The notes below the pieces were generated by a model that made no database searches, was not told the origin of the DNA, and was given only the letters and a program-made list of their open reading frames with translations. A stretch of DNA of 64,000 nt from Phormidium tenue FACHB-886 (GTDB lineage Bacteria > Cyanobacteriota > Cyanobacteriia > Elainellales > Elainellaceae): contig NZ_JACXWX010000004.1 of NCBI RefSeq assembly GCF_014764505.1, positions 124,001 to 188,000 on the forward strand, written 5' to 3'. The translations under genes and the position numbers were made by a program. This document shows positions 6,046 to 27,023 of the stretch, piece after piece (within the stretch, counting starts at the first letter, position 1; every line of letters starts with the position of its first letter).

Positions 6046-6207
6046 TGCGACTGAAACCATAAGTTGAACAATTTTGCAACCATAAGATGAGCAATTGGGG
6101 TGTCCAGTTGCTCATTTTTTAGTTCGGATGACTTTATGGCTTTCAGGGTTTCGCAACCATAAGGTGAGCAAAAGTTCAAAACTGAAACCATAAGGTGAGC
6201 AAAAGTT
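6046..6207 (+). repeat. Left transposon end with TnsB-type sites
   Basis: Four copies of a motif close to RAAACCATAAGNTGAGCA read inward, at 6052-6070, 6076-6094, 6153-6176 and 6183-6207. The last two share CCATAAGGTGAGCAAAAGTT exactly. One copy is reversed (ACTTTATGGCTTTCAG, 6131-6146). Clustered sites of this kind are what TnsB binds in Tn7-family ends. The EVE gene starts 34 bp inside the last site. Confidence 0.75.
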
Positions 6208-6241: not shown

Positions 6242-6793
6242 ATGATAAAGCTAAAGCGTTGGATTAGAGTTTGCAAAAATCAAAATTCTAGAGGCGTGAG
6301 CGATCGCAATTACTGGTTGACTTTATTTACTGGAACCACTTGGCAAGAGTTCCTTAATGCTGGGGCTAATACGGCTGGTTTTCCAGAAAAGCGCTGGGGA
6401 AGCGTGAGACGAATCAAACCAGGAGATTACTTGCTGTGTTACCTCACTGGAGTTTCCCGTTGGGTTGGTATCCTAGAGGTTGTATCGGCCCCTTTTACAG
6501 ACAACACACCGATCTGGACAAGTGGCACATTTCCTAGCAGGGTGAAGGTTAAGCCAGTTTTTCAACTGGAGCCTAAAACTGCTGTACCTGTATTAGATCT
6601 TAAGGAAAAACTCAGTGTCTTCCGAAATTTGTCCAATCCCAAAATTTGGTCAGGAGCATTTCGAGTTGCCCCGTTGCAATGGAAAAAGGAAGACGGTGAA
6701 GCTGTAGCTATTGCAGTGGAGAAGGCGAGTAGGAATCCAATAGAACGTCCTACCGACGAGAAAAAGCTAAACAGAAAACCTAAGCGATACTAA
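6242..6793 (+). CDS. EVE-domain protein
   Basis: 183 residues. From residue 23 the sequence matches the EVE (PUA-like) fold: NYWLTLFTGTTWQEFL, then WGSVRRIKPGDYLLCYLTG, then RWVGILEVVS. EVE domains bind modified bases in DNA or RNA, and in defence loci they often guide nucleases to modified phage DNA. The protein has no nuclease domain of its own. ATG 6242 is used here; a GTG at 6296 giving MSDRNYW is an alternative, and neither has a well-placed Shine-Dalgarno. It is the outermost cargo gene and converges on the HNH nuclease gene with only four bases between stop codons. A joint role with that nuclease is inference. The C-terminus is basic (KKLNRKPKRY). Confidence 0.75.
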   Translation: MIKLKRWIRVCKNQNSRGVSDRNYWLTLFTGTTWQEFLNAGANTAGFPEKRWGSVRRIKPGDYLLCYLTGVSRWVGILEVVSAPFTDNTPIWTSGTFPSRVKVKPVFQLEPKTAVPVLDLKEKLSVFRNLSNPKIWSGAFRVAPLQWKKEDGEAVAIAVEKASRNPIERPTDEKKLNRKPKRY

Positions 6794-6797
6794 CAAT

Positions 6798-8849
6798 TTA
6801 AGAAATCAGGCAATATAAAAGCCAGTAGGCAAATTTATAATTAGGAATGAATTGGAGGCGTCGGCTTAATTTCAGTAACTTTCGGAGAGTAAACGACAAC
6901 TCATCAAAAGTTTCGATCTTAGCTAGCTCAACCAGCTTATTCCAAGTTTCTTCTGAGTATGTTCCAAGATTATCTTGACAGGGGACTTGTTTAGCTAAGA
7001 TCAAACCATTCTCATAGAGATTAATCAGATCTTGTATAAGCACCCTAGGTGATTGAAAACTACTTAATAAGTTCACATATCGCCAGACAGCTAAATCGTC
7101 CTTGTTCACAATCGCTTCTATAAGTGCAAGCAAGTCATTATCGATGTAATTAGAAGGTAGTTGTTCCTGTGATCTTTCTCTTTCAACATCACTTGAGGTG
7201 AGCAAGTTGATAGACTGATCAAATGGTAGATCCCCTATAGTATTTTTATCTATTTCGGATAATTCAGCAGATAATTCATCTTGAGAAGGTGAAATAAGGC
7301 TTTGATCTGACAATTCCCCTGCTTGGTTGCCCACTAGCAGCGATTGAGAGTCTTTAGCGTTTAGGAATGTAGTATTTTGCTGTTTGCCTTCCTCTCGATC
7401 TAATAGCGTCGGTTCTGATTTTTCTACAATTGCTTTTTGCCGATCTCCTTTTTGAGAAAGAACTTCTGGCAGTTGTAACTGCTCTGTCTGTTCTAACAGC
7501 ACAAAATGGGGATTCTGAATTGCTAGTACTTTAGATTTTTTTTTTCTGTTCTCTCGAAGAGTATCGGTCTTTTTTCTTAAATGCTCTGTCTGACATACAT
7601 CAAGTGACCTAGCGATGTGTTCAAGCACTACCTCATCACCGTAAGTTTCCTTCTCCTGTGCAAACTTTTTATCTATGTTTGCTCTGAGATTACGAAGTAG
7701 ATTTCGGTGGTTTTTAGTTAGAGCTGATTTAGTTACTGATGGTTCAATAACTTGCTCTAATATCGTGAACAACCACCAAGTATGAATATATGCAAACGGT
7801 TGCATTCCTTGCAATCTTTTTAACCTTTCATGAAACCTTTCAAGAACATCAAATAAAACACTCTCATCTGTATAGCAAGCTGGATAGGAGTCTATTTCAT
7901 TCAATAAATGGTCAAATAGCTGCTCCCCAATCCGCTCCTCGGGTAGCTTTCGTTCCCATCTATCCGGTATTTCATATATTTCTTTAACAGTATCAATTTT
8001 GTGCTGGATGCTTTCACTTGGCATAGGTTTAATTGCAGTAAACTTAGCCAGCTTTGGGTCTTCTTGTAAGCAAACCTCTAAGTAAGTTCTTGAGGATAAT
8101 CCGTCTTTATCTCTATAAGGCAGGTAAATTTCCTCAAGATTGAGCCGGGAACCATCTGAAGCTTTCAATGGATCTTTGTTGCTTTTAGGTAAGTTACAAA
8201 GATGGCAAATTGGTACTAGATTAAGAGGATGACAGCATAGATGAGGGTACAAACTTTTAGGAAGGTAATGATCTTTTTCTGCCAAGATACCGTCCCTTCT
8301 CTCTGTATGAAAATCTGACTCCTCACATGCAGCACACATTCCAAGCTTTTTATTATGGTTAATAAAATCAATGAGAAAATTCTGGGCGTCAAATGATTTT
8401 TTTGAGCTAAAAATCTGGCTTGGAAAACCATTATTTAATTCATCATAGAATTGCATCAGAAATAGCCAGGCACCTCTTTTCCATTCTGGGGTTGCATTCC
8501 ACTGATTACGTTGATTCTTTGGAATTGCCAAATGATGTAACTGACCATTTCCAAGCCTAAAAGTTTCGATATCTTGCTTAATGGTAGATATCAAATCATT
8601 TTTTTCGTCAGGAGTTCCTAATGCAAATTTTTTTAACGGGCTACAGCGGCTATCCGCATTCCAGATCCATGCCGCAATTGCGTCGGCTGTTTTATCCAAA
8701 CTAGAATTGTGCTTGAGAAATACAGCGCAACTTGTCTGCTCAAGAATAGAGTTACTTGCAGCACATTCTAATAGACTAATTTGAATAGCTACTATTTCTA
8801 AAAGTTGGTTCTCGGTAGAATCTGAAAACTTGTTGACTTTGTAAAGCAT
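6798..8849 (-). CDS. HNH nuclease, last gene of the restriction operon
   Basis: 683 residues. Residues 172-228 form a zinc-type HNH core: CAAC (C172, C175), DHYLPKS with D193-H194, N210, then CHLCNLPKSNKD with C215, C218 and N219. This fold cuts DNA (some members RNA) with one metal ion. The N-terminal 160 residues and the C-terminal 450 are unassigned; residues 430-560 are polar, low-complexity and probably disordered, and the last 100 are helical. It starts 17 bp after the stop of the ATPase gene, so the two are very likely co-expressed. An ATPase followed by an HNH nuclease is the layout of Septu (PtuA-PtuB) and related modules, but this protein is much longer than typical PtuB. The gene looks AT-richer than hsdR, hinting at separate origins of the two halves of the operon. 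Confidence 0.75.
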   Translation of the reverse strand: MLYKVNKFSDSTENQLLEIVAIQISLLECAASNSILEQTSCAVFLKHNSSLDKTADAIAAWIWNADSRCSPLKKFALGTPDEKNDLISTIKQDIETFRLGNGQLHHLAIPKNQRNQWNATPEWKRGAWLFLMQFYDELNNGFPSQIFSSKKSFDAQNFLIDFINHNKKLGMCAACEESDFHTERRDGILAEKDHYLPKSLYPHLCCHPLNLVPICHLCNLPKSNKDPLKASDGSRLNLEEIYLPYRDKDGLSSRTYLEVCLQEDPKLAKFTAIKPMPSESIQHKIDTVKEIYEIPDRWERKLPEERIGEQLFDHLLNEIDSYPACYTDESVLFDVLERFHERLKRLQGMQPFAYIHTWWLFTILEQVIEPSVTKSALTKNHRNLLRNLRANIDKKFAQEKETYGDEVVLEHIARSLDVCQTEHLRKKTDTLRENRKKKSKVLAIQNPHFVLLEQTEQLQLPEVLSQKGDRQKAIVEKSEPTLLDREEGKQQNTTFLNAKDSQSLLVGNQAGELSDQSLISPSQDELSAELSEIDKNTIGDLPFDQSINLLTSSDVERERSQEQLPSNYIDNDLLALIEAIVNKDDLAVWRYVNLLSSFQSPRVLIQDLINLYENGLILAKQVPCQDNLGTYSEETWNKLVELAKIETFDELSFTLRKLLKLSRRLQFIPNYKFAYWLLYCLIS

Positions 8850-8866
8850 TCAAACTGATTTATAAG

Positions 8867-10537
8867 CTATTCAATAGATTCCAACATCTGTTCTATTTCA
8901 AGCAATTCATTAAAGACTTTAGAGTGCCAGTACCCAGGTCCAAGCTGATCGAGCAAGTGCTCTATGCCCTCTTTCCGCTGCTCCAAATCATCGTTTGACA
9001 AACTTTCTAACACTCTGTCGATGTGATTAATTCCATGATCACCTGCTGCATAGGGAGCACCAAAAACATGGACTAGGATGTCATTTGGGCTAGCAGCTAG
9101 TGTTCTAATACGGGGATTAAAAGAGCGACTAGTATGATTCGCATTACGCTCTAGAAGTAAAATATCTTCTCGTGGAACATCTGTGAGGGTAATGCTAGAG
9201 TGCGTTGTAATCAAGACGTGGCTATGCCTTCCAGTAAGAGCTTTGTCTAGATTAGAAACAATTTTACGTTTCCAAAAATCATTAAAATGAACTTCTGGTT
9301 CATCTAAGAGAATTAGAGCCTCTGCCTCACCCAGTAGGACAAATAAGCACATTCTCGCCAGAAAGCTCTGTTCACCATCACTGAGCCAGTTTAGGAGATG
9401 TAATGGAGGAGAGCTTTCTTCGTCATTTTCTGGATAGTTATCATTTTCTGGATGGTTAGAGGAAGTTCTTTCTATAAAAATGTTTACCTCTCGTAGTACT
9501 GATTGACCACTAGCTCCCGCCTCGTGCAACCTAGACAATCGCTTAAAAAATTCTAAGCTATTAATAAATGCCTTCAAGATCGCTTGGGCAGTGGCTTGAC
9601 CAGAGACAGTTAAGTCAAAAATGATTAAATAATCAGTGCCTAACCGTAAAGCACGTCCAGTCGATGGCTCTCGCGTTGCAATTTGAGCCAGCTGTTCGAC
9701 AAATTCTCGATCGCGCGGGCTAGCAGTGACTTGATTAAGACGGAATTTTAATGAGAAGCCAGACAGCCCTTTTATACTTGCCCCGTTTTCTCCGTTGAGC
9801 ACTTCTACCAATCGTGGATAGTCTGGCGATACGGCTAAATCAGCAAGAAGTCCACAAAGAGTCACCAAAGCTAGTTGCTTTGTTTCTATGAATGGGAAAC
9901 GGGTTTTCTGCTTCTGCTTCTGTTCGTTTTCCTCATCTAGGTCTTCCTCTATTGAGTCAGGGGAGGTAGTAGACCATCCAGGCAATTCTTGAAGCGCTCG
10001 TTCTCGCAAAATTTCTCTTCTTTCAGATAAATCTTGCGGCAAAGGAGCAAAACTGCCCTCTGACTTATCTCTATCTTCTTTTTCTAATTCTTTCCAGGCA
10101 GTTTCGCTGCCGGTCGTAAAAGCCACGACAATTTTAGGCAAGATGTCTTTGTCTACCCTGACAGGCTCACTAGCATCATCTATCCAAGCCTCCGGCTCAT
10201 CAAGAATAAAATTATCATTTACCTCTATGGCATCTGGAGTTTGAGCAATGTTTGTTATTTTTACTGCTTTCTTTTTTACTATTTTCTGTGGGTCATCATG
10301 ACCAAGGTCATACTCCAGAACGAATCCATAATCTGGTGAGTTGTTTCGTTCTAAACACCGCATGATATCAAGAAGTAACCGCAAGACAGTCGATTTGCCT
10401 GTTCCATTGACTCCGACTAAAAAGTCCAAGTAGTAGGTAGGCGAATAGTCAGGGGAATCGTCGATGTCAGGGCTGAATTTAATTTCCAGCTTTCTTAAGA
10501 CACGATAATCTTCTACGCGCAAGCGTCTTAGTCTCAT
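8867..10537 (-). CDS. RecF/SMC-type AAA ATPase (restriction-associated, PtuA-like)
   Basis: 556 residues from ATG 10537, whose ATG overlaps the TGA of the methylase gene (ATGA) and follows a GGGAGAG. The start MRLRRLRVEDYRVLRKLEI is the usual first strand of RecF-like ATPases. Walker A is GVNGTGKST (residues 42-50), the ABC-type signature is LSDGEQ (385-390), Walker B is ILLDEPEVHF (409-418) and the H-loop is TTHSS (444-448). The middle holds charged helices (EEDLDEENEQKQKQK) instead of a long coiled coil. Such OLD/PtuA-class ATPases act as sensors or DNA clamps that licence a partner nuclease, here most plausibly the HNH protein encoded next. AAA ATPases of this type are known next to restriction-modification genes; the partner assignment is inference from order and spacing. 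Confidence 0.85.
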   Translation of the reverse strand: MRLRRLRVEDYRVLRKLEIKFSPDIDDSPDYSPTYYLDFLVGVNGTGKSTVLRLLLDIMRCLERNNSPDYGFVLEYDLGHDDPQKIVKKKAVKITNIAQTPDAIEVNDNFILDEPEAWIDDASEPVRVDKDILPKIVVAFTTGSETAWKELEKEDRDKSEGSFAPLPQDLSERREILRERALQELPGWSTTSPDSIEEDLDEENEQKQKQKTRFPFIETKQLALVTLCGLLADLAVSPDYPRLVEVLNGENGASIKGLSGFSLKFRLNQVTASPRDREFVEQLAQIATREPSTGRALRLGTDYLIIFDLTVSGQATAQAILKAFINSLEFFKRLSRLHEAGASGQSVLREVNIFIERTSSNHPENDNYPENDEESSPPLHLLNWLSDGEQSFLARMCLFVLLGEAEALILLDEPEVHFNDFWKRKIVSNLDKALTGRHSHVLITTHSSITLTDVPREDILLLERNANHTSRSFNPRIRTLAASPNDILVHVFGAPYAAGDHGINHIDRVLESLSNDDLEQRKEGIEHLLDQLGPGYWHSKVFNELLEIEQMLESIE

Positions 10538-12681
10538 GTCTCTCTCCCTGAAAGTGAGCCGTTTGAGCCGAATAGCCATATATCTCGCTCCGTTACACGA
10601 CGGTAAGCGAACATCGTTGATTTACTTTTGGGATCTACGACTGTTACAGGCACAATCAACCCCATGCATTCTAGGAGGGCTAATGTAAGACGAGTTGACT
10701 CTAAAGTTCCCTCGGAATAATCTAAATTTAACTGCTCTAGGGTGAAATGTAACGCTGTCTCATAATTATCAGGCTCTGCATCCCCAACCAATGCTGTCTT
10801 CTCGCATATCTTTCGCCAAACCTGCTGCTGGTCATCGTTAAGCTTACTAACTACATTCAATTCCTCTTGAATAAGCTTGGGAGGCGTTCGCTCCTCCTGA
10901 GCAAGTGAAGGTAGTTCCAATCGTCCAAAAAGGCTATCAATTCGCTGAGCTAGTTTTCTCTGATTATCATAAATATTGCGAAGAAGGGTGGTGGGAGAAT
11001 CAATGAGTTGGGATTCAACCGGGGTAATAACGTAGCGCTCTGGGCGGAGATCGTAGGCTTGTTGCTGAATATCGATTGCTCGAACCCCCACCCCTAGTAA
11101 TCTAGGGGATTCACCAATTGCCCCTTTTCCATCTCTAAAGAACGCGATCGCAGCAGCCCAAGCTGGACTAGTAAGCAGTTTGATTGAGGATGGCTCTACT
11201 TGCTTCGAGATCTCTTCTGTTTCTTCGACTTCAAGTTCTTGCTCTTCGCTAGGGTTTTCAGCGGAGGAAATTACGGCTCTAGTCGAGATCCAGACTGTTT
11301 TAGGTATAGGGACCTTGACTGTAATCTTGAATTCTGTTGGTGGCGTTAGTAGTTCCAGCAACAGGTGCGGACCCTGCTCAACTTCTTCGACTTCAGGTTC
11401 TTGCTTGGTTGACCCTGTTGCTGACGGATCAATAAATTCAACAGATTTGAGAGCATGGTTAATGCCCCAACAAACTACACCTGGACATCCTGTTTCTCTA
11501 GAGATCCAATGCACTTTTACCTCTGGAGCATCGCCTTTAGGGAACTGAGCATTAGGTGCGGGGTGCCGCTTTGCCCACAGCTGTTCTACAAAGGGTAAAT
11601 CGCTGGTTTGAGGAGGTGGGTACTGAGTTAAATTGCGTCCCCGACCGGAAGGATAGCCATCCTGCTCTAGCTGGAAGAACCAGGTCAAATGATCTTCGGG
11701 AGATAATCGCTTCGTAAAGAGTAATAGATTGGTCTGTAATGGGCTGTAGGGTTGAAACGCATCTTTAGGAAGGGCGACAACTGCATCTAACGTATTTCCA
11801 TCCACTAAATCAGTGCGGAGGGCTTTATCGGCTGAATTGTTACTGAATAGTAAGCCAGAAGGGGCTAAAACACCTGCTATTCCATCCTGGTCTAGATTGC
11901 GTAAGGCTAACGTAATGAGGGCTGTCTCACTTCTACTAATTTTCCTACCTAACTTGTCCCCTGTAAGAGCAGCGTCCATCTTTTCGCCAAAAGGCGGGTT
12001 CATGAGAACACGGCTGAAGGCTTTAACACCACTAAATTTTTCAACTCTGAATGGAAAAAGTCGCTCTTGGGAGAGTAATGAGTCTGATTCATCAACAATG
12101 CTGAGGGAATTGCCATCCTGAATGGAGTCTTCTCGTAAGGGAATTCTGTGTAGAAGTAGATTTGCTCTGGCAATTCTTGCCCATTCTGGCGATATTTCAA
12201 CACCAAAGGTTCGAGGTTCCTGGTTTCCCTCAGTCACTTCTCTAGTAACTAGTAGCCCACCACTTCCACAGGCAAAATCTGCTAAAGAGTCGCCTGGGTT
12301 AACTTCAGCAAGAGTGTGCATGAAACGAGCGATATGGCGTGGTGTGGGGTAGCGCCCTCCTGCCAGCATTTCAGACAAGCGAAATAGGACATGCTGATCG
12401 AAGAGAGTAGCAAATTGTTGAACCCGGTCATCACCGCCTAGTTGTTCAGCGGCAGATCTTAAATCATCTCGCAATCGGGCAAACTTAGTAATATCGACAG
12501 AGTCAGCCCGCACAGTAAGGGATCGGGGCAATAAGCGATCGGGCAACTCTCCTTCTAGTTCGCTTTCGTTTAGAAACAACCGAGCGATGTACTCGATAAT
12601 TGTTAAGTCATCAGCGATTCCGGCACTACGAAAGACCGACCATGAACGGTTTACTGCTTCATTAGCTTCGTTGGCTGACAC
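10534..12681 (-). CDS. Second N6-adenine DNA methylase with long C-terminal extension
   Basis: 715 residues. The AdoMet-binding motif is DFACGSGG (135-142) and the catalytic motif NPPF (228-231), the signature of gamma-class adenine methyltransferases such as HsdM. It is not a duplicate of the HsdM two genes upstream: the N-terminal domain differs and residues 430-480 contain two acidic repeats (EPEVEEVEQ; EEQELEVEETEE). The C-terminal part has helices (LRNIYDNQRKLAQRIDSLFG) like the end of HsdS/HsdM conserved regions and then a possible winged-helix (LNLDYSEGTLESTRLTLALL). It starts 39 bp after hsdS and overlaps the ATPase gene by four bases. It may methylate a second site, or act as a DNA-binding scaffold for the ATPase and HNH nuclease; the sequence does not decide. 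Confidence 0.8.
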   Translation of the reverse strand: MSANEANEAVNRSWSVFRSAGIADDLTIIEYIARLFLNESELEGELPDRLLPRSLTVRADSVDITKFARLRDDLRSAAEQLGGDDRVQQFATLFDQHVLFRLSEMLAGGRYPTPRHIARFMHTLAEVNPGDSLADFACGSGGLLVTREVTEGNQEPRTFGVEISPEWARIARANLLLHRIPLREDSIQDGNSLSIVDESDSLLSQERLFPFRVEKFSGVKAFSRVLMNPPFGEKMDAALTGDKLGRKISRSETALITLALRNLDQDGIAGVLAPSGLLFSNNSADKALRTDLVDGNTLDAVVALPKDAFQPYSPLQTNLLLFTKRLSPEDHLTWFFQLEQDGYPSGRGRNLTQYPPPQTSDLPFVEQLWAKRHPAPNAQFPKGDAPEVKVHWISRETGCPGVVCWGINHALKSVEFIDPSATGSTKQEPEVEEVEQGPHLLLELLTPPTEFKITVKVPIPKTVWISTRAVISSAENPSEEQELEVEETEEISKQVEPSSIKLLTSPAWAAAIAFFRDGKGAIGESPRLLGVGVRAIDIQQQAYDLRPERYVITPVESQLIDSPTTLLRNIYDNQRKLAQRIDSLFGRLELPSLAQEERTPPKLIQEELNVVSKLNDDQQQVWRKICEKTALVGDAEPDNYETALHFTLEQLNLDYSEGTLESTRLTLALLECMGLIVPVTVVDPKSKSTMFAYRRVTERDIWLFGSNGSLSGRET

Positions 12682-12720
12682 TCTACAAGTCTCCGATAAG
12701 CTTTCTACATCATAAATGGA

Positions 12721-13992
12721 CTACAATTCGCCTCGAAATGCCCGTTCCAGGATCGCTTGTTCTAGCTGGTCAAGAGTTTTAGCATCCTGATCCATGAGTT
12801 TTATCATTGCCTCCGACTCATCAAGCACAGAATCAAGATAGTTAACTACTTGATTCTGGGCATTGATTGAAGGTTTAGGGACTGGAATTTCTAGAACACT
12901 TGTGGGAGAAATACCCGTTTGTCCCCGGTTTTCAGCAAAAGCAGTTCCAGTTCGGCGACTTAAAACCTCCCGATTGCCTCGATCAGACCAGAGGTAGTAG
13001 TAAAGCCATTTACTAGAAAGATCTTGCTGATCCCTGGAGCGTAGAATCATAATTTTGCCGTCTACCGTCCAATTTTCTTCACATTTGTCAACATAAGAGA
13101 CACGTCCAAGTGTCCCTTCAGCAGCATTTGCCATCAAAACATCACCAGGTTTCAAAAACCTATCTTCAGGCATTTTTTGAGCTTGATCTTCCTTCATATA
13201 TGAAGGTCTATCCATTTTTAGGGAGTGTGGGTAGACGTGCTTACTTTTGAAAACTCGAATATTTGACGTTCCTTCACCCACAGCCCTACCGTTAAAGGCT
13301 GTCGCTACTGTCGCTAAAGGAACAATTTCAGCCATAGATTCGAGTTTATTGAAAGCATCATTAACCGTAACAGCTAATAATCGATCGCAATCCCGACGCA
13401 TTTCATCAAGCAATTCACGAGACGATCTCACCTCAGCCAACAGTGCTTCTACCCGCGCAATAATTCGTTGCTGAATATCAAGAGTCGGAGGTACCGGAAT
13501 GAGAGATAATTTCACGAAATCAGATGGAACTCGCTGTTGTCCAACTGCACCCTTGAAATGTTTTTGAGCTTCCTGTCTAAAAGATAGTCGTCTAACAAAC
13601 CTATAAATCCACTCTGGTAATACATCAGGTCCAGGACGAAGTACATGGAATTCAGTAGAACCAAACCCAATTCCATCAACCAGATTACGCGCTATTGCTG
13701 ATTTCCCATTCTCCATACAAGGAGTAATCTTCGCAAATAAGACATCTTCTTCCTCGAAGTATGTATAACCACGAGCTACTTCCTGATATTGACGAATTTC
13801 TAAACTATCAATACTTCCTTCTATATCATTAACGCCAGCCATTGGTAGGAATGAAGTGAGTTGCTCAGGTTGACGCTCGATTCGAGGTCGTCTTGGATTA
13901 ATTTCACAAACTTCTTCTAAAGGTTGTAGCCTCCAAGAGGGTGGTAACTTCCTTTGAAGTTCTTCGATTTCGGTTGTATTCAATGCAAGCAT
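12721..13992 (-). CDS. hsdS: Type I restriction specificity subunit HsdS
   Basis: 423 residues with the two-fold plan of HsdS: a first target-recognition domain (PLEEVCEINPRRPR to about residue 160), a helical spacer (QQRIIARVEALLAEVRSSRE), a second recognition domain (VPLATVATAFNGRAV to about 375) and a second helix ending LEQAILERAFRGEL. Each recognition domain reads half of a bipartite target, so the specificity cannot be predicted here. The start ATG shares one base with the TAA of hsdM (TAATG). There is no sign of recombinational shuffling repeats or a second hsdS nearby. Confidence 0.92.
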   Translation of the reverse strand: MLALNTTEIEELQRKLPPSWRLQPLEEVCEINPRRPRIERQPEQLTSFLPMAGVNDIEGSIDSLEIRQYQEVARGYTYFEEEDVLFAKITPCMENGKSAIARNLVDGIGFGSTEFHVLRPGPDVLPEWIYRFVRRLSFRQEAQKHFKGAVGQQRVPSDFVKLSLIPVPPTLDIQQRIIARVEALLAEVRSSRELLDEMRRDCDRLLAVTVNDAFNKLESMAEIVPLATVATAFNGRAVGEGTSNIRVFKSKHVYPHSLKMDRPSYMKEDQAQKMPEDRFLKPGDVLMANAAEGTLGRVSYVDKCEENWTVDGKIMILRSRDQQDLSSKWLYYYLWSDRGNREVLSRRTGTAFAENRGQTGISPTSVLEIPVPKPSINAQNQVVNYLDSVLDESEAMIKLMDQDAKTLDQLEQAILERAFRGEL

Positions 13993-15512
13993 TATGCCTC
14001 CTCCCCAGTCACTATCTTATGGAGGCGCTCTACAATACTCTGAAGCTTTTCCTGATTCTCTAGAATTCTGGCAGTGAGCTTTGACGGGTGGGGTAAGGCT
14101 TCTTCCTCAGCTTGATTGGGATTCCGAGCGGACAGGTCAAATCCCAGATCCGTGAAGGTTTTAATGTCTACATACCAGCTTGACTTTGGCAGCTTTTCAA
14201 TCGGAACCTCACCCGATTCAAATAGTCTTAAAAGCTGATTAATCTGTCCTGCCTCAGCAAAATGCTCGTCGTTGATTGGGCTGCCCTTGCTAAACTTCCT
14301 CAGGTTCTCAGGCAAAGGCATCTCGTAGTAAAGGACCTGCTTGGTCGAACCCGATCGCTGGAAGAACATCAGAGCCGTTTTGACATCAGAATAGGGGGCA
14401 AAGGCTCCAGGTGGGAGGCTAACGATTAGAAACAGATTGAAATCGTCTAAGAGCATTTCCTTGACGGTAGCAAATGCCCCACTCCGAAAAAGAGTGCCTT
14501 CAGGAACCACCACACCACACCGCGCTTTTCGACCAGGCTTCAGCTTCTTCAGAATGTGCTCAAGTGCGAGCAGTTCAGTGGCATTGCTCTTGATCGGAAA
14601 GTTCTCCTGAATTTGAGCATTTTCCTTGCCACCAAAGGGGGGATTGGTCAGCACCACGTCAAAGCGTTCAGAAACGGTGCGAACATTTTCTTCCAGCGTG
14701 TTCCGCCGCCGAATGTCGGGCACCAATACCCCATGCAGCACCATATTCATCGCTCCCAACAGGGCAGGCAATGCCTTTTTCTCTTGCCCCGTAAACGTTT
14801 TGGTCTGAAGGATTTTGCGGTCTTTAGTTGTTTTCTCCTGCTGTTTCATGTGGTCATATGCTTCAACTAAAAATCCACAAGAGCCGCAGAAGGGGTCATA
14901 AACGGTTTCGCCAATTTGGGGATCAATCACCTCTACCATGAAGCGAATAATCGATCGGGGCGTATAAAACTCTCCAGCTACCTTATTTTCGTTGCCTAGC
15001 CGTCTGAGTAGGGCTTCATATACATGGGAAACGGTGTGGATGTCATCAGGATTCTTAAAGTCAATGCTATCGACAATCTCTAGCACATCCTTTAGGTTAT
15101 AGGGCGAGGCGCAGACCAGGACGTTGCGATCGCCAAAGATGCCAGCAATGATCTCCCGCTCTTGGGAACCGGATAAATTCGCTAAATAAGGAATTAACGT
15201 CCCTCGAACAAACCGCATCAGTTCTTTGCCGTCCCACGTTGGCGTTGCCCGACGACCATTTTCGCCTGTCTTTTCTCCCAGAGCGTTAGGCACCCAATCC
15301 GACCAGCGATAGCCACTGTCAATTACCCGCGTGAACTTGCGCCCTGACAGTTTTGCTTCCAGTTCAAATATTTCTTCCTGCCCATCCAAAAACTTGAGGA
15401 ACAACAACCAGGCGAGATGCTCGACATACTCCATCACCCCGCCGCAATTATCATCTCGACGGAGAATATCACAGGCTCTCCAAATGTCGTTTTCTAGCTG
15501 CTCCCGACTCAC
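13992..15512 (-). CDS. hsdM: Type I DNA methyltransferase subunit HsdM
   Basis: 506 residues. The N-terminal helical HsdM_N domain (YVEHLAWLLFLKFLDG) is followed by the methylase domain with DPFCGSCGFL (206-215) and NPPF (290-293). The consensus Gly-Gly in motif I is Cys-Gly here, a substitution seen in other HsdM proteins and unlikely to inactivate. It transfers methyl groups to adenine N6 in the target read by HsdS and protects host DNA from HsdR. The start ATG overlaps the TGA of hsdR (ATGA). Confidence 0.95.
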   Translation of the reverse strand: MSREQLENDIWRACDILRRDDNCGGVMEYVEHLAWLLFLKFLDGQEEIFELEAKLSGRKFTRVIDSGYRWSDWVPNALGEKTGENGRRATPTWDGKELMRFVRGTLIPYLANLSGSQEREIIAGIFGDRNVLVCASPYNLKDVLEIVDSIDFKNPDDIHTVSHVYEALLRRLGNENKVAGEFYTPRSIIRFMVEVIDPQIGETVYDPFCGSCGFLVEAYDHMKQQEKTTKDRKILQTKTFTGQEKKALPALLGAMNMVLHGVLVPDIRRRNTLEENVRTVSERFDVVLTNPPFGGKENAQIQENFPIKSNATELLALEHILKKLKPGRKARCGVVVPEGTLFRSGAFATVKEMLLDDFNLFLIVSLPPGAFAPYSDVKTALMFFQRSGSTKQVLYYEMPLPENLRKFSKGSPINDEHFAEAGQINQLLRLFESGEVPIEKLPKSSWYVDIKTFTDLGFDLSARNPNQAEEEALPHPSKLTARILENQEKLQSIVERLHKIVTGEEA

Positions 15513-18163
15513 GCAATATCCTCACGATAGAGACGCTGCTGCACCTCATTTAGGGCTTGGCGTAAATTCTCTATCGTACCGAATCTTTGGACAACCCCAG
15601 ACACTTGCCCCATTTCTCTAAAGGGTGACAAGCGAAACACCTCAGGGTTAACCATTTCATCTACCCCTGCCAGACGATACTTGTCCAATAAAGCCAAAAT
15701 CACTTCTTTAGCCTCCGGAGTCTGGTTCTCCAGAAATCGCTCCTCATAGTTCAAGAATGCCTCTGTCCGCTCATCACGAGTGTGAACTGGCTTGTTGAAA
15801 GCTATATGTGCCAGAAGGTCAAACTGATCGGCTTTGGGTTGTGCCAAGACCTCGGCTAAAACCTCAATATGAACGCTCTCGGCTTCTAGTTCCTCTAGAA
15901 GGGCTTCTCGGTGATTAGTATCTGTCCAAATCTCATGCAGTTGGCTCCAGGCAGGAACATACCCCACCACCTTTCGCTTCGTGTAATCCAAATACTGTGC
16001 CAGAGTAAGCTGCTCTCCGGTAGACTCCACCAGAAATGTGGCTTCATCAGCGATCGTAACCTCCAGTCCCCGCACTCGAATCTTGCCAGGAGTGGCTTCA
16101 AAAGGTTTTAGCTCGATCGCTACACTTTGAGTAGCATCTGGAGCCGTTTCAACGCTCAAATTGCGGGGACGAAAGCCCGCTCCCTTCACAGCAAGACGAA
16201 TGGTTGTGGCTGGCAATTCTTCAAATCGAAAATGCCCATCGTCATCCGTTCGGACAGGTCCAACCTGCTGGTTTGCTCCAATCAAAGCACTTACCGCAGC
16301 CCCTACAATTAAGTCGCCCGTGTCAGCATGAATGACTGTCCCTTCTAGAATGCTGGTTCGCGGTCCTTCAATTTCTGCTGGTGGCTCTCCTGGTGGGCGA
16401 TCCCACTCATCAAACAGTCGGGATGCTCCTACATAATCAATAATACGGAACCATTCCTTGCCGATTGCAGCGTCAACCCGTGATCCCCGACCGATGATCT
16501 GTTTGAACAAGATTGGGGAAGCAATAGGCTTGATGAACACAATGTTCCGGCAGGAGGGCACATCAACCCCTGTGCTCAATAATTCTGCTGTGGTGGCGAC
16601 TATGGGAGTTTGGCGATCGCTATCCTGAAACTGCTCCAGCCAAGACTCCGCTTCCCCCTCTTCCGCAATGATAGGAACGGCATAGTCCGAGTAGCCCAAC
16701 TCAGCGAACTCATTCTGGAGCAGGCGAGCCGTCAAACGAGCATGAGTTCTATCCACACAGAAAACCATTGTTTTATCAGTAGCTCCAAAGCGGCGGAGTA
16801 ACCCCGCTAGGTGCTTGGTAATGGCTTCAGTGCGATCGGGCACCGTAATCTCTCGCTCAAACTGGGGAGTCTGGTAAACATCCCGCAAGTCCTGCCCTTC
16901 GGGAACGTAGATCTCAGCCCCCTGAACTTGGGCATCTTGAACGTGCAGCCCATCCTTATCTACCGTTGTCCGAACTCGATGGATTTTGTAGGTAGCGAGG
17001 AACCCATCTTCAATACCCTGTCCTAAGCTGTAGCTGTAGGCAGGCGGTTGCCAGGTTCCTTTAGTCGGGTCTTCTGGGTCTAGAGGAATTTCTGGCTCTT
17101 CCGCACAGAAGTAGGCATAGGTATCAACGCTCTCACTCTGCTTGGGCGTAGCCGTCATGCCCAACTGAATTGCCCCAGTGAAGTGTTGAAGAATCGCGTT
17201 CCACTTACCAAAGCCCGATCGATGGCACTCATCAATAATGATCAAGCCAAAGAAATCGGGTGGAATGCTCTTGAATAGCGAGTCATCTCCGTCACCAGAA
17301 TCCAAAGCCTGGTACAGGGCAAAGTAAAGCTCACGATTCGCGTTGAACTTCCCTCCCCGAATCAAGGCACGCGGATCGGCTGATCCACTGGCAAACGGTC
17401 CAAAGGCGTTGTAAGCCTGATTGCGTAAGACAATGCGATCGGCAATAAAGAGAACAGGCTTATTCAGCCATCCCGACTTCTTCAGCTTCCACACAAGTTG
17501 GAATGCCGTGAACGTCTTACCCGTCCCTGTCGCCATCGTCAAAAGGATTCGCTTCTGTCCAGCTACTACTCGTTCAATTACCCGCCGAATCGCCACCTCC
17601 TGAAAATAGCGAGGCTCCTTGCCGCAAATAGAAGTTGGACAGAATGGGTAAAGTAGCGGATCAGCTTTGGCATCTGGTTCTACGGCATAGGTTCCACCTG
17701 CTTCTGCTGCGATCTGGCGATCGTGGAGTTCCTCAGCAGCTTGCTCACGATACTGCTGCCACCGTTGCCAAAGCTCATGAGGGGTTGGGAAGGTGGAAAG
17801 CTCGTGGCTTCGATTCGAGAAAAAATCAAATTCTACGAATCCATGTCCATTGCTGGAGTAAGCAAAAGGCACGTCCAACATTTTGGCGTAAGACTTAGCT
17901 TGTTCTAGCCCCGAATCGACTTCGTGCGTCTCATCCTTCGCCTCCAGCACAGCGACCATCTGTCCGTAATAACGCAACAGGTAATCGACACGCCGGGGCT
18001 GACGACGTTTAGACTCTTCACCCACTAAATAAATTCTGCCAGCCGTAACGGGACGACCCTTAACAAAGTAATGCTCACGTTCAATCTGGCTCTCTCCCCA
18101 ACCTGAGAGCTTAAGTTTAGGGTCAATCAGTTTGGCACGTGTATCAGCTTCGTTATAAGACAC
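15509..18163 (-). CDS. hsdR: Type I restriction endonuclease subunit HsdR with Ig-like insertion
   Basis: 884 residues, first gene of the operon. The N-terminal nuclease has D60 and E74-A-K76 in VDYLLRYYGQ..AVLEAK. The SF2 motor has Walker A ATGTGKT (211-217), DECH (311-314), TATP (about 337) and QIIGRGSR (555-562). Between the motor and the C-terminal helical domain, residues 604-688 form a carboxypeptidase-regulatory-like Ig fold (GTVIHADTGDLIVGAAVSA; DDDGHFRFEELP; IRLAVKGAGF). That fold is common in secreted and membrane proteins and is out of place in a restriction motor. The C-terminus (about 720-884) resembles the EcoEI-type HsdR tail that contacts HsdM/HsdS. The start MSYNEADTRAKLIDPKL is the standard family start. 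Confidence 0.94.
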   Translation of the reverse strand: MSYNEADTRAKLIDPKLKLSGWGESQIEREHYFVKGRPVTAGRIYLVGEESKRRQPRRVDYLLRYYGQMVAVLEAKDETHEVDSGLEQAKSYAKMLDVPFAYSSNGHGFVEFDFFSNRSHELSTFPTPHELWQRWQQYREQAAEELHDRQIAAEAGGTYAVEPDAKADPLLYPFCPTSICGKEPRYFQEVAIRRVIERVVAGQKRILLTMATGTGKTFTAFQLVWKLKKSGWLNKPVLFIADRIVLRNQAYNAFGPFASGSADPRALIRGGKFNANRELYFALYQALDSGDGDDSLFKSIPPDFFGLIIIDECHRSGFGKWNAILQHFTGAIQLGMTATPKQSESVDTYAYFCAEEPEIPLDPEDPTKGTWQPPAYSYSLGQGIEDGFLATYKIHRVRTTVDKDGLHVQDAQVQGAEIYVPEGQDLRDVYQTPQFEREITVPDRTEAITKHLAGLLRRFGATDKTMVFCVDRTHARLTARLLQNEFAELGYSDYAVPIIAEEGEAESWLEQFQDSDRQTPIVATTAELLSTGVDVPSCRNIVFIKPIASPILFKQIIGRGSRVDAAIGKEWFRIIDYVGASRLFDEWDRPPGEPPAEIEGPRTSILEGTVIHADTGDLIVGAAVSALIGANQQVGPVRTDDDGHFRFEELPATTIRLAVKGAGFRPRNLSVETAPDATQSVAIELKPFEATPGKIRVRGLEVTIADEATFLVESTGEQLTLAQYLDYTKRKVVGYVPAWSQLHEIWTDTNHREALLEELEAESVHIEVLAEVLAQPKADQFDLLAHIAFNKPVHTRDERTEAFLNYEERFLENQTPEAKEVILALLDKYRLAGVDEMVNPEVFRLSPFREMGQVSGVVQRFGTIENLRQALNEVQQRLYREDIA

Positions 18164-19636: not shown

Positions 19637-22450
19637 ATGCTGAGCCAGGAAGAATTTGAGCGATGGTGCGATCGCCTCGCTCTTCCGGAAACAACACAAA
19701 AGGTTATTCAAGAGATTCGATCCTCTGATCCCTCGCGCCGAGTCTTAGGAAATAGAGTCAGCGTTACAGGCTTTTATTCCAGTCGAAAAATGGGACTGAC
19801 AATCCAATTTGAGTCCCATCGGAGTGAATTAGCACGTATATACGAACTAGAGCATGATCCAGACGTACTAGAGTATTATGATCAGCCGCCACCCGTCGAA
19901 CTCGTTTATAACGCCAAGAGTGGGAAGCAAAACCGACATCAATATACACCGGATTTCTTTATCATTCGTACCAACTCGGCAGGATGGGAAGAGTGTAAAA
20001 CTGAGCAAGAACTAATAAAACTTGGTCAGGATAAGCCAAATCGTTACCGAAAGGAAGATGACCAGAAATGGCATTGTCCACCCGCAGATGTGTACGCATC
20101 AAGATATGGATTAAGCTTCAACGTTTGGTCAGATGCAGAGATTAGCTGGACTTTTCAACAGAATTTTGTTTGGCTAGAAGACTACATTGGGTTAGAAGCA
20201 TCCAATGTGCCTGATGAAGCTAGCCAAGCTGTCATTGCCACAGTCGAAGCAGAACCAGGAATTACACTTGCACAGTTGCTTCAACAGGCGGAGTGCTTCA
20301 ATGCAGATGATGTCTACACCCTAATTGTTACTGACCAGCTATACGTAGATTTGGAAAAGTTTAGATTAGCTGAGCCAGAAACCGTACGCATCTTTTTGAA
20401 TAAAGAACTGGCTTTAGCATTCGATCGCATTACAAGCATCTCTCCCTCTAATATTCCAACCAGCCTTCACAATGTTCAGATTGCTGTAGGTTCATCTTTA
20501 CTATGGGACGGTGAGCTTTGGACAGTAGCCAATACAGGTATCACATCGACTACTTTATTGAGATATGATGGGGAGCTTTTGCCATTACCAAATTCTACGA
20601 TTGATAAACTGATCTTAGAAGGAAATATATCCGCTCCAGTGATTGAGGAGGATGTTCAAAAGAAGGCAGAAGTCAAAGAGATTTTACAACGTGCTCGCCC
20701 TGAAGACATCAAAGAAGCAAATCATAGATATGAAGAAATTCGACCTTACTTAGATAAAAATCCTCCTCCTAGACCATCCAGTACAATTCGTCGTTGGCGA
20801 GACGCTTATCGCAAATCTGAGGAGATATACGGGAATGGGTATATCGGGCTTTTTCCTAGGAATCAGAAAAAAGGGAATTATGGGTCAAAGGTTGGCGAGG
20901 AATCTCGTCAATTCATGCTCAAGTTTATAGAGGAGAACTACGAGAATCCTAAGAATCGAGGAATTCTTCGAGTTTATGAGAGCTACGCTGAGGCATGTTC
21001 AAAACATGAACCATCTTTTATTCCTTTGAGCCGTACCACCTTTTCTCAAGCAATTAAGGAACGAAGTGGAGTAAATCAAACACTTAAACGTGAGGGTCGT
21101 CGAGCCGCTATCCAGAAGGAACAATTCTACTGGGAGCTAAAAACAACAACTCCTCAACATGGTAATCGTCCTTTTGAGATTGTTCACCTCGATCATACAG
21201 AGCTAGACATTCAATTAATTAGTTCTATTCAATCTCTTACTACCTGTAGTCACATCTCTATTAGTGATGCAATAAAACACAATCTTGGTCGCCCTTGGGC
21301 GACCTTTATGAGTGACGCTTTTTCAAGAAGATTATTGGCGGTTTATCTCACCTATGAGGAGCCAAGCTATCGCTCGTGTATGATGGCGTTGCGTATTTGT
21401 GTACAGCGATTTAGAAGATTTCCTCAAACTATCGTAGTAGACAACGGACCAGAATTCCACAGCCATTACTTTGAGCAGTTAATAGCTTACCACTACTCCA
21501 TTAAGAAGCATCGTCCTGTAGCTAAAGCACGATTTGGGGCTGTTGTCGAAAGGCTCTTTGGTACTGCTAATACCCAATTTGTTCATGAATTGACAGGTAA
21601 CACTCAAATCATGAAGAAACAGCGTCAAGTTACCAAATCAGTCAATCCTAAAAATCTAGCAATCTGGACATTAGATGCCCTTTACGAATCACTTTGTGAG
21701 TGGGCTTATGAGATATATGACAAGCGGGAACACTCAGCCTTAGGTAAAAGCCCTCGTGAAGCTTTTAATGAAGGACTTGCATTAGGAGGTGATCGTTCAC
21801 ATCGGAGAGTCGAATATGACGAAGCCTTTCGTATACTAACTTTGCCCGCTCCTGATGGTGGTACACGGAAAGTACAACCTGGCTATGGAATAAAGATTCA
21901 TAATATCTACTACTGGTCTAACGCCTTCCGCAATCCAGAAATAGAGAAATCCTCAGTAGAGGTAAGATATGACCCGTTTGATGCTGGCGTTGCTTATGCT
22001 CTCGTTGAAGGGCAGTGGGTGCAATGTGTATCTAACTATTATCAGTATCTTCAGGGTCGCTCTGAAAAAGAAATACGACTTGCTAGTGCAGATTTGCGTA
22101 AGCGTAAGCTCACGCAAGGACAAAAAACTATTGAGACTGACAAAGAATTAGTCCAATTTCTCAGTTCAGTAGAAGCAAAAGAAGGGCGATTAATGGAAGA
22201 ACGATTAAGAGCTTCCGAAAACCGTCATGTTTTGCAAATGCTTGAGACTGGATTTGATAGGAATGGAAACTCTATTAATTCAGAAGCATCACTGCATCAG
22301 GATATCGAGATTGTTTCTCCAAGCAGCTTAACAGCGAACCCTAAAGCTGACACCTTAAATAATATTGCCAAAGAAAATAATGTTGCTGAAGGCGAAGCAG
22401 AGATCGTTAATGACGAGGCAGATGATTTTGTATTTTATGGAGAGTTTTAA
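19637..22450 (+). CDS. tnsAB: TnsA-TnsB fusion transposase
   Basis: 937 residues joining two Tn7 functions. Residues 40-165 are a TnsA-type PD-(D/E)xK nuclease: ELARIYELEHDP, D106 in YTPDFF and K121 in EECKTE; it cuts the 5' strands at the ends. Residues 500-720 are the TnsB DDE core with D519 (HLDH), D602 (VDNGPEF) and E638 (VVERLFG), a DD35E spacing; it cuts and joins the 3' strands. Residues 380-500 are helix-turn-helix domains that would bind the end repeats, and the region after 720 is a Mu-type beta-barrel plus a polar tail likely to contact TnsC. The fusion is known from cyanobacterial Tn7-like and type I-B CRISPR-associated elements. The TAA shares one base with the tnsC ATG. All catalytic residues are present. 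Confidence 0.93.
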   Translation: MLSQEEFERWCDRLALPETTQKVIQEIRSSDPSRRVLGNRVSVTGFYSSRKMGLTIQFESHRSELARIYELEHDPDVLEYYDQPPPVELVYNAKSGKQNRHQYTPDFFIIRTNSAGWEECKTEQELIKLGQDKPNRYRKEDDQKWHCPPADVYASRYGLSFNVWSDAEISWTFQQNFVWLEDYIGLEASNVPDEASQAVIATVEAEPGITLAQLLQQAECFNADDVYTLIVTDQLYVDLEKFRLAEPETVRIFLNKELALAFDRITSISPSNIPTSLHNVQIAVGSSLLWDGELWTVANTGITSTTLLRYDGELLPLPNSTIDKLILEGNISAPVIEEDVQKKAEVKEILQRARPEDIKEANHRYEEIRPYLDKNPPPRPSSTIRRWRDAYRKSEEIYGNGYIGLFPRNQKKGNYGSKVGEESRQFMLKFIEENYENPKNRGILRVYESYAEACSKHEPSFIPLSRTTFSQAIKERSGVNQTLKREGRRAAIQKEQFYWELKTTTPQHGNRPFEIVHLDHTELDIQLISSIQSLTTCSHISISDAIKHNLGRPWATFMSDAFSRRLLAVYLTYEEPSYRSCMMALRICVQRFRRFPQTIVVDNGPEFHSHYFEQLIAYHYSIKKHRPVAKARFGAVVERLFGTANTQFVHELTGNTQIMKKQRQVTKSVNPKNLAIWTLDALYESLCEWAYEIYDKREHSALGKSPREAFNEGLALGGDRSHRRVEYDEAFRILTLPAPDGGTRKVQPGYGIKIHNIYYWSNAFRNPEIEKSSVEVRYDPFDAGVAYALVEGQWVQCVSNYYQYLQGRSEKEIRLASADLRKRKLTQGQKTIETDKELVQFLSSVEAKEGRLMEERLRASENRHVLQMLETGFDRNGNSINSEASLHQDIEIVSPSSLTANPKADTLNNIAKENNVAEGEAEIVNDEADDFVFYGEF

Positions 22451-23598
22451 TGCAATTAATAAATGGTTTTCCTCGTGAGCTATTAAACTCTTCTGTTCAG
22501 GAAAGAACAGCCTTTTTTGAAAACTATACGATGCCACACCCAAGGTTAATTGAGTCGGTTAAACAATTAACGGATTCTATATATGAATCTGCTAAACCGC
22601 CAATTGTCTTTGTATTTGGTCCTACTGGTGTTGGCAAATCGACCTTAATACGCAAGGTCAGAAAAAACCTTATTGAGTCGGCTTTACCTGATTTGTTTGA
22701 GGATAGAGCGCGGATTCCATGTGCAGTCATTGAAGCTGCAACGCCGGAGTTTAGCAACTTCGACTGGAAGGATTTCTATGTTCGAGGCTTGACTGCTTTA
22801 CAAGAACCGTTAATTGATAACAAAGTTGACCCTGACTCCGCTAAAAAAAAGCCTAATCCTGACAAAAATAAATTGAAATTACGCCTTTCTTTTGAGGAAG
22901 CATTACGTCAACGTCACCCTGATGCCTTCTTTATTGATGAAGCCCAGAACTTGGGAAAGTTAAGCAGTGGGCGCAAGCTGAAAGATCAGACAGATTGCAT
23001 CAAATCTATTGCCAATATTTCTGGGGTTCAATTTGTTCTGGTTGGAACATATGAGTTGATAGTTCTTCGGAATTTAAGTGCCCAGTTATGTCGCCGTAGT
23101 ATTGATGTCCACTTTTCACGCTATCAATCAACTCCTGAAGATCTAAAAATCTTTGAAAATATTGTTAAAACTTTCCAATACTACTTACCGCTACCAGAAA
23201 TTCCCGACTTAGCTAGCCATTGGGATTTCTGCTATGAACGGACGATTGGTTGCGTTGGGATTCTTAAAGATTGGCTATCTCGTACACTCAGTGCAGTCCT
23301 TAAAACTAATCCATCAGCAAAAACGATCACTTACAAAGATTTGATGAAGCACGCTTGGTCTGTAGAACAATGCAGAATTATGTTGACCGAAGCTATGGAG
23401 GCGGAGGGGAAGTTTAGGGACAAGGATGCGGGGAAGAATGATTTAAGAATGGCTTTAGGTCTAGTTGCCAGTCAAGCATCAACCTCACAGGTGACTTCTC
23501 AATCTGATACAGCAACCCCTCAAGGAAAAGGAAAAACTCGGAACGTAGGTAAGCCAAACCCAACCCGTCGTCCTACAGGAGAACGAAATGATAGCTGA
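22450..23598 (+). CDS. tnsC: TnsC-type AAA+ transposition regulator
   Basis: 382 residues. Walker A is GPTGVGKS (57-64) and Walker B FFIDEAQ (160-166), as in TnsC/TniB ATPases, which polymerise on target DNA and pass the chosen site from a TniQ protein to TnsB. The last 60 residues are Gln/Ser/Thr-rich and basic. It is translationally coupled to tnsAB (TAATG) and overlaps tniQ1 by 11 bp. Confidence 0.92.
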   Translation: MQLINGFPRELLNSSVQERTAFFENYTMPHPRLIESVKQLTDSIYESAKPPIVFVFGPTGVGKSTLIRKVRKNLIESALPDLFEDRARIPCAVIEAATPEFSNFDWKDFYVRGLTALQEPLIDNKVDPDSAKKKPNPDKNKLKLRLSFEEALRQRHPDAFFIDEAQNLGKLSSGRKLKDQTDCIKSIANISGVQFVLVGTYELIVLRNLSAQLCRRSIDVHFSRYQSTPEDLKIFENIVKTFQYYLPLPEIPDLASHWDFCYERTIGCVGILKDWLSRTLSAVLKTNPSAKTITYKDLMKHAWSVEQCRIMLTEAMEAEGKFRDKDAGKNDLRMALGLVASQASTSQVTSQSDTATPQGKGKTRNVGKPNPTRRPTGERNDS

Positions 23599-26593: not shown

Positions 26594-26620
26594 CATGTCA
26601 GGCTTACTTAAGGGGATTAT

Positions 26621-26693
26621 GTAAGCATAAAGTGAGCAACCAGTTCTGAAAGCATAAAGTTAGCAATTTGTTCACTTTATGCTTTCAGTCATA
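26621..26693 (-). repeat. Right transposon end with TnsB-type sites
   Basis: The terminal site (26669-26688) reads inward on the minus strand as CTGAAAGCATAAAGTGAACA. Two further copies, 26621-26639 and 26647-26666, read in the opposite direction (GCATAAAGTGAGCAA and GCATAAAGTTAGCAA). The last pair forms a palindrome with 15-bp perfect arms (CTGAAAGCATAAAGT at 26646, its complement at 26674). Same-end sites in opposing orientation are unlike the tandem sites of canonical Tn7. Confidence 0.7.
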
Positions 26694-26698: not shown

Positions 26699-26724
26699 CT
26701 TATCTCTAGACCCATATAAACTCA

Positions 26725-26805
26725 TGCGGATGGCGAGACTCGAACTCGCAAGGCAAAGCCACACGCCCCTCAAACGTGCGCGTATACCAATTCCGCCACA
26801 TCCGC
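26725..26805 (-). tRNA. tRNA-Leu (anticodon GAG)
   Basis: 81 bases. Acceptor GCGGATG pairs with CATCCGC, discriminator A, no encoded CCA. The anticodon stem CACGT/GCGTG encloses the loop TTGAGGG, giving GAG. The long variable arm (TGGCTTTGCCTTGC) is typical for tRNA-Leu. The T arm is GAGTTCGAGTCTC-like. The transposon lies just past its 3' end, making it the probable attachment gene. Confidence 0.93.
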
Positions 26806-27023
26806 AAACAGGGTTTGGAGTGTCAGCGCTTGAAACCACCTAAGAATAGGCTAAATCAAGCTTGGCGTTCTCCAGTATCTCAGCATACTGCAAAATTCTA
26901 AATTCTGCATCCCCTCAGTTGCCCGGCTCCCTTTTAGCAGAATGCCAGTGCATTCCCAAAACCTACAGTAAACTTACAGTCAAAGCCTACAGTCCGCAAA
27001 GCCTATACCCTGCAGAAACTGCC
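26806..27023. other. Intergenic, upstream of tRNA-Leu
   Basis: This stretch carries the tRNA promoter side and the 3' flank of the subtilase gene. I see no coding sequence with support and no strong hairpin. Confidence 0.4.

Follow-up and report, generated by a model that had tools for sequence, protein, structure and literature searches.

The window analysed here, a 64,000-nucleotide stretch of DNA from the 8.9-Mb genome of Phormidium tenue FACHB-886, carries on its minus strand (18163-6798) six co-directional and intact open reading frames (ORFs) in the order hsdR-hsdM-hsdS-MT2-ATPase-HNH; neighbouring genes overlap at three junctions and stand 39 and 17 bp apart at the other two. The leading gene, hsdR (15509-18163, minus strand, 884 aa), encodes a type I restriction motor/nuclease subunit of the EcoAI/FtnUII family, with ResIII (E=4e-39) and EcoEI_R_C (7e-24) domains in profile searches, a score of 693 bits against the EcoAI family model NF046051, which exceeds the cut-off of 550, and TGTGKT, DECH and EAK motifs that are all intact. 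It overlaps by 4 bp with hsdM (13992-15512, minus strand, 506 aa), the product of which keeps AGEF and NPPF (NPPFG) and matches N6_Mtase (2e-56), HsdM_N (3e-13) and the structure 5ybb_A (E=2e-202). An overlap of 1 bp leads into hsdS (12721-13992, minus strand, 423 aa), a short form without a C-terminal adaptor, in which Methylase_S is matched in two stretches and PADLOC Specificity_I at E=3e-85. MT2 (10534-12681, minus strand, 715 aa), a paralogue of HsdM that contains an internal insertion and ends in an adaptor, follows after 39 bp, the largest gap in the operon; its C-terminal adaptor domain, which is winged-helix-like, spans residues 611-702 (10576-10851, minus strand). The gene for a PtuA-like ABC/SMC-type ATPase (8867-10579, minus strand, 570 aa) overlaps MT2 by 46 bp, or by 4 bp if it begins at an internal Met that aligns with the homologues, and is separated by 17 bp from a PtuB-like HNH nuclease gene (6798-8849, minus strand, 683 aa), whose HNH core, C172xxC175...D193H194..K198...N210L...C215xxC218N219 (8193-8336, minus strand), consists of alignment columns that are conserved in the family members compared. 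In the window proteins, none of the Walker A, ABC-signature, Walker B, NPPF, EAK and HNH motifs is disrupted. The earlier note on this DNA had described six genes on one strand with tight junctions, and both this layout, with every ORF in place and no gap above 39 bp, and the domain identities that it gave the six proteins hold, the latter by profile searches. Scans of the operon for sigma-70 promoters and terminators performed no better than on shuffled sequence, and are therefore uninformative on the ends of the transcript.

The last two genes resemble the PtuA and PtuB proteins of Septu, remotely in both cases. The ATPase belongs to the AAA_21/AAA_15 families (AAA_21, 5e-14), matches PtuA models down to E=4e-33 and the PDB PtuA 8ee4 at E=5e-7, reaches 129 bits (E=2e-37) on TIGR04435, which is under the cut-off of 300, and scores 60 bits on the curated PtuA model NF041760, where 500 would be needed. 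The HNH protein has no Pfam HNH match; its PADLOC matches are to PDC-M01B (E=8e-14) and PtuB (4e-8), and its best fold matches are to the PtuB of retron Ec78 (9u9y_H) and of Septu (8eea_G). We considered whether it is a plain Septu PtuB and rejected this assignment, as the fold agrees and the family threshold is missed. Its C-terminal extension includes a stretch that resembles DnaX (gamma/tau) domain III, the clamp-loader collar (6900-7145, minus strand; PRK14948, E=6e-7); it is 29% identical to the DnaX encoded in this genome (E=7e-4) and is modelled at low confidence. This DnaX-like stretch was not seen in the relatives, and is possibly a replisome-targeting fusion, or an accident.

A Tn7-like element about 20.7 kb long (window 6050-26688) carries the operon as its cargo. 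TnsB-site-like repeats mark the left end (AACCATAAGgTGAGCAA, 6050..6207, repeat families D3-D5) and the right end (aaGCATAAAGTgAGCAA, 26617..26688, repeats D3, I3 and I5), the latter adjoined by a tRNA-Leu(GAG) gene (26724-26806). On the plus strand lie a TnsAB fusion (19637-22450) with Tn7_TnsA-like_N and rve domains, a putative TnsC (22450-23598), a TniQ-like ORF (23588-25159) and a TniQ/TnsD-like ORF (25156-26529), the last three assigned by position, size and sequence character, with no library match that named them. No cas genes were noticed in the interior of the element. The transposon also holds, convergent with the HNH gene, a gene for an EVE-domain protein (6242-6793, plus strand); EVE domains bind modified bases. 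In Nostoc carneum (locus L072, 3-2235), a partial TnsAB of 45% identity and a ribbon-helix-helix gene flank a version of the operon that lacks MT2, so related transposons carry both variants.

We collected relatives by searching cyanobacterial genomes, plasmids and, in one scan, 84,980 species genomes with the ATPase as the query, and labelled the ORFs of each locus by profiles built from the window proteins. The same gene order recurs in 60 non-redundant loci (L042-L103 minus two duplicates) from at least eight phyla, the hosts including Cyanobacteriota, Chloroflexota, Pseudomonadota, Desulfobacterota-type lineages, Planctomycetota, Verrucomicrobiota, Poribacteria and Bacillota, which excludes an adjacency unique to P. 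tenue FACHB-886 and is far beyond chance. An HNH gene lies directly downstream of the ATPase gene in all 58 loci with sequence there, and an hsdS or MT2 gene lies directly upstream in 55 of 56; the sole exception, L044, has an ATPase gene split by a transposase gene, the N-terminal half of which does adjoin MT2, so that the count is effectively 56 of 56. HsdM was found in 49 of 51 loci and HsdR in 45 of 50, and the junctions are mostly of -4 or -1 bp. In the ATPase tree the window superclade comprises 54 tips (support 1.0), and no stand-alone ATPase-HNH copy was found inside it. Such stand-alone pairs occur in a distant branch only (L146, L147, L150, L151), on plasmids of Rhizobium, Streptomyces, P. 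megaterium and Rhodococcus; other, more distant plasmid relatives, in Priestia aryabhattai, Hymenobacter and Pseudoalteromonas, are hsd-linked, as is a Pantoea plasmid copy that falls in the main superclade. The check on co-occurrence that had been proposed, namely whether the last genes are found mostly alone, hence came out the opposite way.

Trees of HsdR, HsdM, HsdS, ATPase and HNH correlate with one another (r=0.61-0.95; 0/999 permutations), and the ATPase and HNH distances co-vary with those of HsdR and HsdM (r=0.66-0.82; the observed value is attained in 0/999 permutations). The clade that bears MT2 is monophyletic in all five trees. Some strongly supported splits conflict (e.g. 7 of 22 HsdR splits against the ATPase tree), which indicates limited exchange of subunits. 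Ordinary type I operons do not bear the ATPase-HNH arm, since twelve loci of the same phylum with HsdR of 40-45% identity have no adjoining ATPase or HNH gene. Taken together, we regard it as nearly certain that the hsd-ATPase-HNH operon is one conserved unit, as had been suggested for the complete type I system and its Septu-like pair; the order conserved in 60 loci bears this out.

MT2 is found in the window, in Mojavia (L050), in a Coleofasciculus metagenome-assembled genome (MAG; L051), in the genome G307 (L044) and in Chloroflexota (L042, L053-L062, L073), and wherever the contig extends far enough it lies between hsdS and the ATPase gene; most of the 60 loci lack it, and it is confined to one clade, made up of window-type cyanobacteria and Chloroflexota. 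By sequence and by its predicted structure, MT2 is an HsdM paralogue and not a free-standing methylase. It matches N6_Mtase at E=1e-32 in profile searches, its profile covers the N-terminal part and core of EcoKI M (residues 1-381), its tail aligns with the tail helix of HsdM, and its AlphaFold model (mean pLDDT 75) matches the HsdM structures 5ybb, 2y7c and 7vru, including PacII M1/M2. The window MT2 keeps NPPF and has GGRY where HsdM has its AGEF pocket. NPPF is retained in 12 of the 14 MT2 sequences with a readable site and is replaced by APSF in the two Ktedonobacterial loci L053 and L062. A lineage of the same phylum with 2-Mb genomes, which is probably Gastranaerophilales-like, has between hsdS and the ATPase gene a diverged MT2-like gene (L046, L047, L049, L140; hhalign probability 84, E=8e-6, against MT2) in which the methylase motif is degenerate (FDPPL) or absent. 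The paralogy with HsdM and the loss of the motif in relatives make it unlikely that MT2 is simply an independent methylase, and we rejected it as an ordinary second modification enzyme with a specificity of its own, there being no specificity gene for it. The earlier note's 'separate methylase' with a second motif is therefore not supported: MT2 ends in an adaptor tail, has no S gene of its own, is missing from most loci and has a degenerate catalytic motif in several. The clade with MT2 has a further mark, a carboxypeptidase-regulatory-like (Ig-type) domain inside HsdR (residues 606-685, 16109-16348, minus strand; PF13620, E=4e-13), which fills 80/80 columns with about 29-44 identical residues in the clade, as against at most 64 columns and at most 11 identical residues in HsdRs outside it, and which, among the loci compared, is common to the MT2-bearing clade only.

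The strongest clue to a physical coupling of the arm is the adaptor on the gene upstream of the ATPase. HsdS is about 515-700 aa long in systems without MT2, versus about 390-430 aa in the MT2 clade, and the C-terminal extension of long HsdS aligns with the C-terminal ~90 residues of MT2 (hhalign probability 97.6, E=5e-12). Profiles built on one set recover the other: an MT2-only tail profile picks up 14 HsdS tails, the best at E=1e-6, an HsdS-only tail profile finds 8 MT2 tails, and a joint adaptor profile matches 39 HsdS and 16 MT2 ORFs among 4,479 ORFs, with no other ORF among these and none in the twelve ordinary hsd loci. HsdS tails of the MT2-bearing clade have no adaptor. On this sequence evidence, the adaptor domains of MT2 and of long HsdS are homologous, and in both well-sampled lineages the gene directly upstream of the ATPase gene, whichever it is, ends in an adaptor. 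The adaptor part of the MT2 model has the helix-strand-helix-helix-hairpin order (H-b-H-H-b-b) of winged helices. The MT2-like tail of the Gastranaerophilales-like lineage matches the adaptor weakly (probability 83, E=9e-6); for a viral contig of this type the match is at E=6e-4. Two other relationships were considered and dropped. The MT2 C-terminus is not the extension of long (~820 aa) HsdM proteins, as that match (probability 75, E=3e-5) proved, on reading the tails, to be the normal tail helix of HsdM, and the adaptor is not common to the long HsdS tails of the TIGR04435 sister clade, which give no profile match.

Natural variants that lack parts of the system bear on what the arm depends on. 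The Mojavia locus (L050, 2414-5137) has HsdR only as a C-terminal remnant, with a distant HsdR elsewhere in the genome, and L053 and L062 have no HsdR anywhere in the genome searched; all three retain M-S-MT2-ATPase-HNH, so the arm can be retained without HsdR. These loci could be decaying copies. In Ktedonobacter robiniae (L062, 5196-13209) both methylases are also without NPPF (HPPL and APSF), and the motifs of ATPase and HNH are intact, which disfavours a DNA cutter gated purely by methylation. L062 may be viewed as a natural 'sensor-only' version, and L044 (G307, 9960-10952), in which a transposase gene splits the ATPase, as a natural knock-out; there hsdM is split too, and the remainder is largely kept. 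Just upstream of hsdM in L050 lies a gene whose product combines pentapeptide repeats with an Mrr-like nuclease domain.

The reading that we put forward, at roughly even chances, is that of a single mobile system against phages, in which a type I enzyme incorporates a PtuAB-like effector that acts through the adaptor as a PrrC-like guardian. HsdR, HsdM and HsdS would form an ordinary sequence-specific restriction-modification enzyme, and the PtuA-like ATPase and PtuB-like HNH protein a latent effector, held and gated by the HsdM-HsdS recognition complex. The ~90-residue adaptor would be the physical link, on HsdS in most lineages and on MT2 in the lineage of the window, where MT2 probably binds HsdS in the manner of an additional M subunit. 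Disturbance of the recognition complex, by an anti-restriction protein of the phage or by a DNA state, would lead the ATPase to free the HNH nuclease, which would then cut tRNA or DNA and stop the infection. This guardian reading combines two precedents: PrrC, encoded inside the type I locus of EcoprrI, is activated once phage Stp inhibits the type I enzyme (PMC12707154), and the PtuAB of Septu cleaves tRNA-Tyr upon infection, in an abortive response that requires both active sites (PMC13096335). Conserved order, coupled trees and the adaptor all support the idea of one system with two arms; the coupling mechanism is about as apt to be wrong as right, and the physical complex, the trigger, the substrate and the abortive outcome are inferred. 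The trigger that the earlier note suggested, failed restriction or erased methylation, is conjectural and would follow from the case of PrrC. A related version, which we hold somewhat tentatively, is that of a widespread hybrid immune system: a mobile adaptor on HsdS or MT2 would wire the PtuAB-like effector to the type I complex, MT2 would be a sensor subunit (M-S-MT2), sometimes inactive as a methylase, and the arm may outlast the loss of HsdR and of methylation as a pure infection sensor.

The same adaptor, carried as it is on the DNA-recognition subunit, also suits a restriction arm that is no guardian, in which HsdS-HsdM(-MT2) on unmethylated sites would bring in ATPase-HNH as a second effector that cuts DNA, either alongside HsdR or in its place. 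Cleavage of DNA is common among HNH enzymes, and the operon is retained without HsdR in L050, L053 and L062. However, with NPPF lost from both methylases of L062 and its ATPase and HNH motifs intact, an arm gated by lack of methylation would attack its own host unless another methylase protects the sites, and the nearest characterised PtuAB pair cleaves tRNA; we therefore consider this direct recruitment unlikely. That two independent defence systems merely share a promoter and travel together on mobile elements, with no functional coupling, seems distinctly improbable. Defence genes generally cluster, the window copy is transposon cargo, and the stand-alone pairs in other branches (L146, L147, L150, L151) indicate that the fold can exist without coupling to hsd genes. 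Chance clustering nevertheless does not explain a superclade with zero stand-alone copies, a strict gene order with overlaps, clades that match across trees and an adaptor that tracks the position upstream of the ATPase. Least of all do we favour MT2 as a functional second modification subunit in a non-canonical M1M2S enzyme, as in PacII, that would have two modification activities, with ATPase-HNH sensing the loss of the MT2 mark. The MT2 of the window and of most relatives keeps NPPF, and it has an HsdM-like N-terminus, an S-docking tail and a model that matches PacII M1/M2, but NPPF with GGRY is unlike a PacII-type M2, L053 and L062 have lost the motif, the Gastranaerophilales-like loci have it in altered form or not at all, and most loci have no MT2.

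Type I restriction is a textbook defence, and to our knowledge PrrC is the main known suicide device built into it. If type I enzymes are indeed coupled to a Septu-like pair, in a conserved manner and across several phyla, the idea of guarding the restriction enzyme would become general, a defined physical link of ~90 residues between restriction complex and effector would be at hand, and the curated and so far unexplained family TIGR04435 would be easier to understand; the relatives without HsdR and with dead methylases make the restriction complex as a sensor directly testable. In the open-access literature searched, which takes in only a minor part of subscription journals and preprints, we found no description of an hsd-PtuAB operon or of the adaptor.

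HsdR, HsdM and HsdS, in which the motor, nuclease and methylase motifs are all intact, place the operon in type I restriction-modification, and by their respective tests it is not Septu, TIGR04435, MADS, PARIS or PacII. Like the MADS (methylation-associated defence system), it combines HsdM/HsdS-like proteins with an ATPase, with MAD2, MAD3 and MAD5 far below their cut-offs, the others of MAD1-8 unmatched and a different gene set; the likeness to AriA of PARIS is limited to the ATPase core, and there is no TOPRIM AriB partner. PacII-type M1M2S enzymes likewise combine one S subunit with two M subunits that differ from each other, the M2 being marked by NPPY and AAEF and the M1 by AGEF (PMC9613975), a signature (NPPY/AAEF) that MT2 lacks, bearing instead an adaptor and, in some lineages, a degenerate motif. 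The best matches of the HNH protein are to the PADLOC candidates PDC-M01 and PDC-M62 (A, ATPase; B, HNH), which are listed as A/B pairs, whereas the window genes match them in part and the pair is joined to restriction subunits. TIGR04435, the 'restriction system-associated AAA family ATPase' of NCBIfam, shows that curators had already noted the restriction link of a sister family, and its clade (L043, L048, L145, L148) also has the order hsdM-hsdS-ATPase-downstream ORF; a Kovacikia member scores 799 against the cut-off of 300, whereas the window ATPase falls in a separate clade and below the cut-off, and the HsdS tails of the TIGR04435 clade have no adaptor match. With Septu and retron Ec78 PtuAB, the nearest solved sequences and folds, the operon shares an ABC-type ATPase followed by an HNH protein, yet the similarity is remote, the window-family HNH proteins are of about 290-680 aa versus about 205-270 for PDB PtuB chains, and in the window superclade, where the contig allows a view, ATPase-HNH never occurs without hsdS or MT2 upstream. 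The likeness to PrrC of EcoprrI lies in an ATPase-containing suicide effector that is encoded within an hsd operon as a proposed guardian of the restriction enzyme. No PrrC/ACNase family is among the profile matches listed for the window proteins, and in place of a single ATPase-ACNase the 3' end of the operon encodes a PtuA/PtuB-like pair, with the HNH protein separate from the ATPase; these systems also have the adaptor on HsdS or MT2 and, in one clade, an extra HsdM paralogue.
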